Shown here piece by piece: positions 41,769 through 63,058 of a stretch of DNA of 64,000 nt. The position numbers and the translations under genes were made by a program. The DNA is taken from positions 193,501 to 257,500 of the forward strand of contig NZ_JAOVZQ010000001.1 of NCBI RefSeq assembly GCF_026619435.1. The letters run 5' to 3'. The notes beneath the pieces were generated by a model. The model searched no databases. It saw only the letters and a program-made list of their open reading frames with translations, and was not told where the DNA came from. Within the stretch, counting starts at the first letter, position 1. Every line of letters begins with the position of its first letter. This DNA comes from Hoeflea ulvae. GTDB taxonomy: Bacteria; Pseudomonadota; Alphaproteobacteria; Rhizobiales; Rhizobiaceae.

Positions 41769-41816
41769 AAATCTCCCCCTTGCGGGGGAGATGTCGGCGT
41801 AGCCGACAGAGGGGGT
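41769..41816 (+). repeat. Palindromic intergenic repeat R1
   Basis: Two nested dyads: ATCTCCCCC-TTGC-GGGGGAGAT followed by GTCGGC-GTA-GCCGAC and then AGAGGGGGT. The reverse complement reads ACCCCCTCTGTCGGC, which is the unoccupied IS110 target. It faces R2, 45 bp away. Confidence 0.85.
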
Positions 41817-41868
41817 TGAGTTACGCTATGCTCCGAAAGGCTGGTGGGTGCCGGCATATTACCCCCCT

Positions 41869-42055
41869 TGTATGTTCGACCCGCGCCTTGATGGTATTGT
41901 TTTGGCGTGATCCCCCGGAGGTGGCCACCTCCGGGGGATCTGGCGGGCGGGACCGTTCCCCCTTGGTTTGAACCGAGACAGAGCTTGGTCCGTCCGTCTT
42001 CACGTTTGTCCTGAACAGATGATGGGGAGCAAGTCCCGCATGCAAGGCAAGGTAT
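41869..42055 (+). ncRNA. Predicted bridge RNA of IS110 copy 1
   Basis: The region upstream of and overlapping the transposase start folds into: (1) a 32-bp perfect palindrome at 41909-41940; (2) a target loop closed by GGACC (41950-41954) and GGTCC (41987-41991), with an inner hairpin CTTGGT/ACCGAG (41962-41977). Its left strand has CCCCCT (41958-41963), equal to the left target; its right strand has GACAGAG (41977-41983), complementary to the right target CTCTGTC. (3) A donor loop with ACAGATG (42015-42021), equal to the element's right end, and CATGCAAG (42039-42046), complementary to its left end CTTGTATG with one G-T wobble. This matches the guide layout known for IS621. The fold was done by eye. 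Confidence 0.65.
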
Positions 42056-43011
42056 CGTTCGAACAAGACGCGACGTCCGCAGTTTATGTCGGTGTGGACG
42101 TCTGTAAAGAGTGGCTCGACATTCATGTCCTTCCGCAGGCTGAAAGCCGGCGGTTCGGCAACGACAAGGCTGGCATCCGCCAGTTCAAGCGGATGCTGAC
42201 CAGACTGCGGCCCGATCGCATCATCATGGAGGCGACCGGCAAGTTCCATCGTCCCGCTCACCGCTCGCTCAGTGGAGATGGTTTTGCTGTGGCGATCGTC
42301 GATCCGTGGCGCGCCCGGCAGTTTGCAGGCTGCTACGGCTATCTGGCCAAGACCGATCGGCTCGATGCCCGCATGCTGGCGCTGCTGGCTGCCGCACTTC
42401 GGCCGCAGCCGAGTGCGCCTCCAAGCCCGGACATCGAGGCCCTGCGGGAGCTGGTCAATGCAAGGTCGGGCGCCCAAGGCGAGCTCACGGCGCTGAAGAA
42501 CCGTTGCAAGGCGGCCGATGTCGCCTTTCTGCGGGCAGAGCTTTGCCGGCTCATCGGGGTGCTGGAGCGGCATGTCGAACGGCTGGATTCCGAAATCGAA
42601 CGCCGTATCGCCGCCCAGCCGGATCTTTGCCGCAAGGCCGAGATCCTGACCTCTGTTCCCGGCATCGGCCGTATCACCGCCAGCGCCCTGATCGCCGGAA
42701 TGGACGAACTCGGCTCCTGCACCGGCAAGCAGGCGGCGATGCTGGCGGGCGTTGCCCCGATCGCCGACGACAGCGGCGAAAGGCATGGCCGGCGCTCCAT
42801 TCGAGCGGGAAGGCGCGCCCCGCGGCGCGCGCTCTACATGGCCGCCCTGTCGGCACGGCGCTACAATCCGGCGCTTGCCGCCTTTGCCAAGACGCTCCAG
42901 GCTGAAGGCAAACCACCCAAGGTCATCCTTGTCGCCATCATGCGCAAGCTCGTCGTCCTGGCCAATTGCCTGCTCGCCCAGAACCGACTCTGGACACCAA
43001 CTCCGCCTTGA
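42040..43011 (+). CDS. IS110-family DEDD recombinase, copy 1
   Basis: A 323-residue transposase. The RuvC-like N-terminal domain carries the DEDD set: Asp20 ([10 protein letters not shown]), Glu64 (IIMEATGKF), Asp106 and Asp109 ([10 protein letters not shown]). The C-terminal Tnp_20 domain has [20 protein letters not shown] and a catalytic Ser245 in [11 protein letters not shown]. The ATG at 42040 has GGGGAG upstream; an in-frame ATG at 42019 lacks a ribosome site. The chosen start lies within the predicted donor guide. Differs from copy 2 at R259P and E289A. Confidence 0.93.
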   Translation: MQGKVSFEQDATSAVYVGVDVCKEWLDIHVLPQAESRRFGNDKAGIRQFKRMLTRLRPDRIIMEATGKFHRPAHRSLSGDGFAVAIVDPWRARQFAGCYGYLAKTDRLDARMLALLAAALRPQPSAPPSPDIEALRELVNARSGAQGELTALKNRCKAADVAFLRAELCRLIGVLERHVERLDSEIERRIAAQPDLCRKAEILTSVPGIGRITASALIAGMDELGSCTGKQAAMLAGVAPIADDSGERHGRRSIRAGRRAPRRALYMAALSARRYNPALAAFAKTLQAEGKPPKVILVAIMRKLVVLANCLLAQNRLWTPTPP

Positions 43012-43026
43012 CAGCAAACACAGATG

Positions 43027-43068
43027 CTCTGTCACTTCGTGACATCTCCCCCACAAGGGGGAGATAAT
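43027..43068 (-). repeat. Palindromic repeat R2, right part, interrupted by IS110 copy 1
   Basis: CTCTGTCACTTCGTGAC followed by ATCTCCCCC-ACAA-GGGGGAGAT. The missing ACCCCC part lies on the other side of the element (41861-41866). Confidence 0.8.
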
Positions 43069-43100
43069 TGGACGCCAGCTTCGGACACAATCGGACACAC

Positions 43101-43124: not shown

Positions 43125-43187
43125 CTGAACTGTGTATCTCGGACGGCCTACACCCGGCGCTCGACCATCATCTTCTTGATCTCGGCA
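43104..43187. repeat. Direct repeat A (terminator plus sdhB 3' end)
   Basis: About 84 bp almost identical to 43927-44011 (repeat B), with only a handful of differences. Both contain the hairpin and CTACACCCGGCGCTCGACCA of sdhB's last codons. They flank an insert with one small gene, like duplicated ends left by integration or unequal recombination. Confidence 0.75.
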
Positions 43188-43245
43188 ATCGCCTTGGCCG
43201 GGTTGAGACCCTGGGGGCAAGTCTGGGCGCAGTTCGTGATTAGGT
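43149..43245 (-). pseudogene. sdhB 3'-end fragment
   Basis: The minus strand reads [20 protein letters not shown] followed by KMMVERRV and stop, the last about 28 residues of SdhB including the third Cys cluster. It diverges from the true sdhB at scattered bases, so it came from a related allele or has drifted. No upstream coding part remains. Confidence 0.8.
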
Positions 43246-43280
43246 GGCAAGGACGAGAATCCCGGCGATTGAGCGGGCTT

Positions 43281-43772
43281 TTATTTGCCGTCGTAATACG
43301 ATCTGCCGTAGTCCACAGTTTCAGCTTTACAGCTTTGGCAAGCGTAAACAGCTGATCGGCCCTCGGCTTCCTTCCGGTAATTCATTGGAGACAGCCGATG
43401 CTCGACTTCAAAACAGTGCTGACAGTACCATGGCGCTTTTTCAGGGCCATCGGGGCTGTTTTCTGCGACATACACAAAGGCACCACGTTCAAGCCGATAT
43501 GGCACGTAGCTATCTTTCTTAGAGAGAAATGATTTAATCTCTCTGATTTCGCCTTCGAGTTGCAGATTCCTGTCTACTATTTCATTGTTGACCGCTCTCA
43601 GGTCATTCACCCGCTCACTCGCGTCCAAAAGCTGCTCGCGAACCTCACTCAGCTTCGCCTTCGCTTCGGAGTTCTGCACAAGCGGGGCTACGTCTTTAAC
43701 AAGTCCACTGGTTTGCTTGAGTAATGTAATCGTGGCGCTGATCTTGTCAGCAATATCAGACCAATCGGTCAT
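43281..43772 (-). CDS. Hypothetical coiled-coil and zinc-ribbon protein
   Basis: A 163-residue protein. Residues about 25-85 are a probable coiled coil ([20 protein letters not shown], then [20 protein letters not shown]). The C-terminal part has two Cys pairs, CQHC and CQSC about 30 residues apart, a likely zinc ribbon. I do not recognise a function. Codon use is less GC-rich than in the neighbours, and it sits between the duplicated sdhB ends, so it is probably mobile cargo. Confidence 0.7.
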
Positions 43773-44011: not shown

Positions 44012-44074
44012 CCCGGCGACGCCCGCAGCCGCTGCAAGCGGCGAGGACGCGCAAGGCGATTGTCGATTGCCGTC

Positions 44075-44854
44075 CTACACCCGGCGTTCCACCATCATTT
44101 TCTTGATTTCGGCAATCGCCTTGGCGGGATTGAGACCCTTGGGGCAGGTTTGCGCGCAGTTCATGATGGTGTGGCAGCGATAGAGCCGGAACGGATCCTC
44201 GAGATCATCGAGCCGCTCGCCGGTGGCTTCATCGCGGCTGTCGATCAGCCAGCGATAGGCCTGCAGCAGCACGGCGGGGCCGAGATAGCGGTCGCCGTTC
44301 CACCAGTAGCTCGGGCACGAGGTCGAGCAGCAGGCGCACAGGATGCACTCATAGAGCCCATCGAGCTTGGCCCGGTCTTCGTGGCTCTGCTTCCATTCCT
44401 TGGCCGGCGTCGGCGAGACTGTTTTCAGCCACGGCTCGATCGAGCGGTGCTGGGCATAGAAATGCGTCAGGTCCGGCACCAGATCCTTGACCACCGGCAG
44501 ATGCGGCAGCGGATAGACCTTGACCGCGCCATCGATCTCGTCGAGACCCTTGGTGCAGGCCAGCGTGTTGGTGCCGTCGATATTCATGGCGCAGGAGCCG
44601 CAGATCCCCTCGCGGCAGGAGCGCCTGAGCGTCAGCGTCGCGTCGATCTTGTTCTTGATCCACAACAGACCGTCGAGCACCATCGGCCCGCAATCATCCA
44701 TATCGATGTGGAAGGTGTCGATGCGCGGGTTTTCCGCATCATCCGGCGACCAGCGATAGACGCGGAATTCGCGGGTGTTGGAAGCACCCGCCGGCTTCGG
44801 CCAGGTCTTGCCCGGCTTCGGCTGCGAATTCTTGGGAAGTGTGAGTTCAACCAT
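44075..44854 (-). CDS. sdhB: Succinate dehydrogenase iron-sulfur subunit
   Basis: A 259-residue subunit carrying three Fe-S clusters: [2Fe-2S] in [20 protein letters not shown] with a following Cys, [4Fe-4S] in [16 protein letters not shown], and [3Fe-4S] with [11 protein letters not shown]. It passes electrons from SdhA to the quinone. Last gene of the sdhCDAB operon, 15 nt after sdhA. The 3' end has two partial duplicates downstream. Confidence 0.97.
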
Positions 44855-54752: not shown

Positions 54753-54767
54753 CATCTGTGTTTGCTG

Positions 54768-56444
<1,677 letters not shown>

Positions 56445-62831: not shown

Positions 62832-63058
62832 TTGGTCGTCCTGTTTTTGCCGAAGGAAACGCTTCAGCTCATATGGGACGAACATCAGACAAAGCCAAAC
62901 AGCACCCGAGGGCGCATCGCGCTGTCGGGTGGTGACCTCCGGGATCGATTTATACCAATAAGGGTCCCGGTCGGCGGCTCGGAGTCATGCTCGTCGCAGA
63001 TTTGAGCGGGATAAACAGGAAAAGCGGCGGAAAGTCAAGGTTGGGAAGCCCTGAGGCC

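Follow-up and report, generated by a model that had tools for sequence, protein, structure and literature searches.

The window analysed here is a stretch of 64,000 nucleotides from the genome of Hoeflea ulvae. It carries on its forward strand an insertion sequence with a recombinase gene and, at the left end, a predicted bridge RNA whose 3' part overlaps this gene. The features are given below in positions of the window.

41862..41868, +, left half of the occupied target, CCCCC-CT, with the core CT at 41867-41868 (sequence; congener empty site)
41869..43026, +, IS110-group insertion sequence of 1158 bp (four copies with identical ends; empty site)
41871..41876, +, TATGTT, −10-like half of a putative promoter completed only in the excised circle
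41883..42058, +, predicted bridge RNA (approximate ends, placed from promoter spacing and fold)
41909..41940, +, 5' stem-loop of 14 base pairs (fold covariation, 22 sequences)
41942..41998, +, target-binding loop, stem strands 41942-41954 and 41987-41998 (fold covariation)
41955..41963, +, left target guide GTTCCCCCT, whose target-matching part is CCCCCT (41958-41963)
41977..41983, +, right target guide GACAGAG, complement of CTCTGTC
42010..42052, +, donor-binding loop, closed by 42010-42012 with 42050-42052, the 3' strand lying within codons 4-5
42015..42021, +, left donor guide ACAGATG, the same as the right end of the element
42025..42037, +, apical hairpin GGGA/UCCC of the donor loop (helix 4 of the fold)
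42025..42029, +, Shine-Dalgarno-like GGGAG within this hairpin, 10 nt before the ATG
42039..42046, +, right donor guide CATGCAAG, containing the start codon (42040-42042)
42040..43011, +, recombinase, 323 aa, PF01548 and PF02371 (family profiles; homologue comparison)
43008..43013, +, TTGACA, −35-like half of the circle-junction promoter, including the stop TGA (43009-43011)
43020..43026, +, right donor end ACAGATG
43027..43033, +, right core CT (43027-43028) and right target half CTGTC (sequence; congener empty site)
54753..55911, −, second copy of the element, 1159 bp, with an extra C in the left target guide

The recombinase scored 215.9 bits against the NCBIfam IS110 profile (cutoff 140), which bears out the family proposed in an earlier interpretation of this DNA from its letters (the sequence-only reading). 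By sequence it matches the solved structures of IS621 (E 9e-34) and ISCro4 (E 1e-33). Its DEDD and serine positions were aligned with the sequence of the IS621 structure, and D20, E64, D106, D109 and S245 are invariant in 24 proteins; the catalytic roles that we give to these residues are partly our assumption. The DEDD RuvC-like domain together with a PF02371 domain bearing a conserved serine places the protein in the IS110 group. The element begins 171 bp before the ATG and ends 15 bp past the stop codon, and this combination of a long left end, carrying the RNA ahead of the gene, with a short right end fits the same group. The IS1111 group, in which the RNA occupies a long right end, was rejected, since the RNA lies on the left and 15 bp follow the stop. 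Overall, 842 homologues of the recombinase were found.

Beyond the element, the 3' end of a gene at 44078-44854 (−), which has iron-sulfur domains by domain search and which we take to be sdhB-like, is repeated ~0.9 kb away (43144-43249 and 44071-44176), as if DNA had been inserted at the end of this gene. Between the repeats lies a 163-aa reading frame (43284-43772, −) matching phrog_1244, of unknown function.

Four near-identical copies of the element are present in the genome, two of them in the window; they differ by four single bases and by one C in the left target guide, the latter split 2:2 among the copies. All four sit at CCCCC-CT-CTGTC inside a palindromic repeat, the flanking sequences being CCCCCT (left) and CTCTGTCAC (right). 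Since insertion interrupts CCCCCTCTGTC, the 12 intact occurrences of this sequence in the genome (none when read backwards as a control) represent unoccupied sites. In two genomes of the same genus, in which the recombinase had no match at E 1e-60, we counted 14 and 25 sites of the CCCCCTCTGTC type (backwards control 0 and 2). One of these two congeners, G139, has no interruption at the orthologous place (ACCCCCCTCTGTCACTTCGTGACATCTCCCCC), and the empty site there reads ACCCCCCTCTGTCAC with a single CT; in the other, G046, the left flank was matched at the gene end only. The uninterrupted place in G139 indicates that insertion duplicates CT alone, and the CT borders proposed earlier are thereby confirmed, with cores at 41867-41868 and 43027-43028. 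Elements of the IS110 group typically insert in this way, precisely and at a short core within a particular repeat. The palindromic repeat itself occurs as two copies in opposite orientation (41770-41820 and 43027-43070), the second of which holds the element; in G139 this pair is uninterrupted.

To describe the RNA, 22 left ends were aligned (alignment A3). The alignment yielded a 5' stem-loop, a target loop and a donor loop, so that the anatomy first drawn from one sequence is now supported by RNA covariation. In 23 of 33 pairs, both bases had changed together at least once with pairing preserved, and 95.8% of cells were paired, versus 30.6–52.8% when the partner was slid by 1–3 columns; none of 500 shuffles attained any of the five observed measures. 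The 5' stem-loop showed at least one double compensatory change in all 14 pairs (22 sequences). The target-loop stem (12 pairs, 99.2% of cells paired) showed compensatory changes in 8 pairs and the stem closing the donor loop in one of its 3 pairs (100% of cells paired), while the GGGA/UCCC hairpin was paired in 95.5% of cells with no compensatory change. Folding of the single sequence, which had been suggested as a check, gave a z-score of −4.28 for the whole left end but a weak −0.82 for the two loops alone.

A covariance-model search, also suggested earlier, succeeded with a model of the clade and not with Rfam, in which no bridge-RNA family was matched and three relaxed-threshold matches fell far below gathering scores. 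The clade model (R1), built with the window copy included, gave 179–184 bits for both copies in the window, one of which was in the model alignment. Of 42 other relatives at a greater distance, 26 were detected by it at E ≤ 0.01 and a further two at 0.011 and 0.43; of a set of four comprising the IS621 RNA and three other IS110 relatives it found none. Scans for the donor-loop pattern returned 4 of 397 genomes of the order and 2 of 385 of the class, the own genome included in each. Elsewhere in the window, an ffh sRNA (RF01793) was detected at 62895-62946 (−) with 66.8 bits.

Direct inspection of the sequence confirmed the positions given earlier for the four guide strings CCCCCT, GACAGAG, ACAGATG and CATGCAAG. 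Core bases take part in both target pairings and in the pairing of the right donor guide. As for the proposed fit of the donor guides to the element ends, ACAGATG indeed equals the right end, and CATGCAAG complements the left end CTTGTATG with one G-T wobble, but the left donor guide ACAGATGA lacks the core C at position 8. The right donor guide pairs at all positions 8–14 (wobble allowed) in 19 of the 20 loci scored, the sole exception being L038, which has a truncated gene.

If the guides select the target, they should follow the flanks in related elements, as the sequence-only reading had proposed to examine. Our guide table holds 37 rows: the four own copies, eight copies of genome G400 and 25 other elements from rhizobia, Methylobacterium, Kiloniellales, Sphingomonadales and others. 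It uses 19 of the 80 loci of one relative set, having left out gene pieces (L029, L053, L081, L088, L090 and L094) and more distant loci (L036, L039-L052, L054-L080, L082-L087, L089, L091-L093 and L095-L097), as well as L011-L014 and L116-L136. Three of six plasmid matches were taken. L102 is the same as L032 over the compared stretch. The test of right guides covered 34 rows, which form 10 guide groups (a right end was not found for L031, L038 and L115), and that of left guides 33 rows forming 17 groups (a left end was not found for L025, L028, L030 and L101). In both, each guide was compared with the consensus flank of its own group and the flanks were permuted, a procedure that leaves some effects of common descent in place.

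The 10 distinct right guides matched at 44 of 48 non-core positions, compared with a permuted mean of 23.8, and the 17 distinct left guides matched at 70 of 85 of the five positions before the core, compared with 46.6; on neither side did any of 100,000 permutations reach the observed value. Guide-target covariation across relatives, as expected of a bridge-RNA element, is present on both sides. Positions 1 and 2 of the left guides hardly matched (3/17 and 5/17 groups). In the copy at 41869-43026, the left guide matches over only 6 nt including the core, and the preceding GTT is mismatched. The target fit claimed for this copy is borne out by covariation with the flanks and by the empty site. 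In the G400 copies (L103, L105, L107, L109 and L111-L114) the right flank CTCTCCC matched in 8/8, whereas the left flanks varied, with CACCCT in 4/8, which suggests that the right guide is the stricter one. The flank of L101 was shifted by one base in the right test because its CT starts one base in; its right flank fits the guide with this shift only and no clear left end was found for it, possibly owing to an altered core or a decayed end.

Moreover, in the few genomes counted, the guides suit the common palindromic repeat of the host. The target of the right guide GGATGAG, CCCCTCATCCG, occurs 65 times in G015 and 91 times in G963 (the genome behind L018), both of which host this guide (backwards control 0 and 1, respectively), and 5 times in the own genome. 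The corresponding counts for CCCCCTCTGTC are 2 in G015, 13 in G963 (backwards control 4) and 12 in the own genome.

The right donor guide is contiguous and reads nAUGCAAG, and its AUG is the start codon of the recombinase. The sequence-only reading had treated this as a blemish; on comparison of the loci, the overlap of start codon and guide is instead a conserved property of the clade. Among 24 loci, codons 1–4 are ATG in 23, CAA in 23, GGC in 21 and AAG in 22, codon 5 onward being variable, and the one locus without ATG CAA is the truncated L038. At the protein level, 111 of the 120 homologues among the matches listed (842 found) start with MQGK, followed by variable residues 5–14. Five more of these 120 carry MQGK behind a longer annotated start, two have MQDK (one of them behind a longer start), and the motif is absent from the fragment P0038 and from P0091, which begins past it. 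In the 22 aligned sequences, GGGAG lies 10 nt before the ATG in 20, with constant spacing in those 20. None of 22 more distant relatives inspected by eye showed an AUGCAAG start, the start being unclear in several.

In-frame ATGs also occur at 42019 and 42022, and 6 of the 120 homologues among the matches listed are annotated from further upstream, so either could be the real start instead of 42040; three annotated plasmid relatives start at MQGK. The computed accessibility of the ribosome site was slightly low (mean unpaired 0.25, versus 0.33 overall), while the AUG, at 0.50, was more open than average. A slightly masked site with an open AUG gives weak support for translational shut-off by folding.

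The other end of the gene shows a further overlap, that of the stop codon with the −35-like box. The right ends carry TTGA in 34/34, TTGAC in 33/34 (L033 has TTGATC) and the full TTGACA in 17/34. Joined through the core to the left end, the right end is predicted from the sequence to form TTGACA-N17-TATGTT, and the spacer between TTGAC(N) and the −10 box is 17 bp in all 29 loci with both ends scored. The −10 box reads TATGTT in two other loci besides the own copies; most relatives have CATGTT, which is weaker. Among the loci with these right ends, the gene is broken in L022, L023, L035 and L037 and the frame ends elsewhere; codons ending in T make up 658 of 5742 in the intact genes counted. 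Circle-junction promoters have been reported for IS621 (PMC11208160, PMC11208158) and for ISEc11 and ISEc21 (PMC11187229).

Taken from comparison of sequences, the anatomy, the precise insertion, the covariation of guides with targets and within the RNA, and the conserved overlap make it very probable that the element encodes an RNA-guided recombinase of the IS621 kind, with a left-end bridge RNA whose 3' part overlaps the gene. Its transcription, excision, catalysis and regulation, and the exclusive use of a transcript as guide or message, are what we infer. In the recombinase-RNA complex, the first loop would pair with CCCCC-CT-CTGTC in a palindromic repeat of the host and the second with the end-to-end junction of the excised circle, ACAGATG-CT-TGTATG, and the complex would exchange strands at CT. 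The 3' part of the RNA would place the start codon in a guide, the ribosome-binding site in a hairpin and codons 4-5 in the closing stem, and the circle alone would join the −35-like box, with its stop codon, to the −10-like box. Most likely, the element is a bridge recombinase of compact design, with a single RNA that may act as either guide or message.

An ordinary IS110 element with chance guide matches, whose target is chosen by the protein, could also lie in a repeat, as IS110 elements targeting repeats were described before any such RNA was known (PMC1525189). With 10 distinct right and 17 distinct left guides covarying with the flanks, and with strong covariation in the RNA, we regard this as extremely improbable. 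It is also improbable, if less so, that MQGK is kept for a reason of the protein and coincides incidentally with the donor guide. The near-invariance of the first four residues in the 120 homologues among the matches listed would agree with such a reason, but conservation extends to the bases: codon 2 is CAA in 23 of 24 loci, although glutamine elsewhere in the intact genes counted is written CAG more often (112 CAG versus 48 CAA, 160 in total). Moreover, the left end CTTG(C/T)AT dictates the guide AUGCAAG, and a paired change from C-G to U-A in the closing stem reaches codon 5 in L031 and L032. In IS621 and the Enterobacter relative L140, the guide lies 12 nt before the ATG, which likewise argues against a coincidence.

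What the overlap does is more evenly balanced. It may simply compact a short element and have no regulatory consequence, a reading to which we give an even chance. The additional overlap of stop codon and −35-like box points this way, as do the only mildly reduced accessibility predicted for the ribosome site and the open AUG. Against it stand the conserved GGGAG hairpin (20/22 sequences, 95.5% of cells paired, though without compensatory change) and the precedent of ISPpu9, whose translation is held down by structure in the 5'-UTR (PMC8450116). We also propose, tentatively and with rather less than even weight, that one transcript has two exclusive fates. In the recombinase-bound fold the ribosome site and the start codon would be hidden, whereas the unfolded transcript would be the message. 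As excision would complete the promoter for guide and message, the enzyme could use its own guide RNA to restrain its production. If true, this would be a built-in copy-number control in a bridge recombinase.

These recombinases are under development as programmable genome editors. Should the overlap between start codon and guide prove regulatory, self-limitation of such elements would become testable. The overlap also means that codon changes near the start of the gene could damage the RNA. The bridge RNA itself is of a known kind; the point of interest is the conserved overlap of guide and reading frame. Titles and abstract openings of the open-licence papers listed in our searches, a range outside which most subscription papers and bioRxiv fall, held no description of a start codon inside a bridge-RNA guide. 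In PMC11208160 the RNA search took in 50 bp of the coding region, so that overlaps may have been noticed there but left unnamed.

Among known systems, ISPpu9 of Pseudomonas putida (IS110 family) also targets REP sequences; its regulation involves an antisense RNA, and the portion of its paper at hand describes no start codon inside a guide (PMC8450116). ISRm19 of Sinorhizobium meliloti (IS110 family), likened here from its description alone, resembles our element in its repeat target, 4/4 copies being inside REP repeats (PMC1525189).

The element shares with IS621 of E. coli the recombinase domains, a left-end RNA with 5' stem-loop, target loop and donor loop, the CT core, insertion into a palindromic repeat and a similar donor sequence. 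The predicted RNA is close in length to the 177 nt of the IS621 bridge RNA, and at donor position 12, where the IS621 structure has a non-canonical G161-dT12 pair (PMC11208160, PMC11208158), our right donor guide forms its G-T wobble. Nevertheless, the clade covariance model did not match the IS621 RNA, the right target guide follows 7 nt here and 4 in IS621, and 15 residues precede YVGVD here, compared with 6 before YIGID in IS621. Moreover, the IS621 right donor guide, ATTTGCAAG, has 9 nt, pairs discontiguously and ends 12 nt before the annotated ATG, upstream of the gene, the distance also found in L140, whereas here the guide is contiguous and the AUG lies within it. The two U's that are flipped out in the IS621 guide according to the structure paper (PMC11208160, PMC11208158) are absent here, and the AUG is thereby created. 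An element of a Methylobacterium nodulans plasmid annotated as ISMno29 family belongs to the same clade (50% identical protein) and has the same donor loop and MQGK start. Its guides (left ..CTCCCTCT, right GGGAAAG) are different and match another site.
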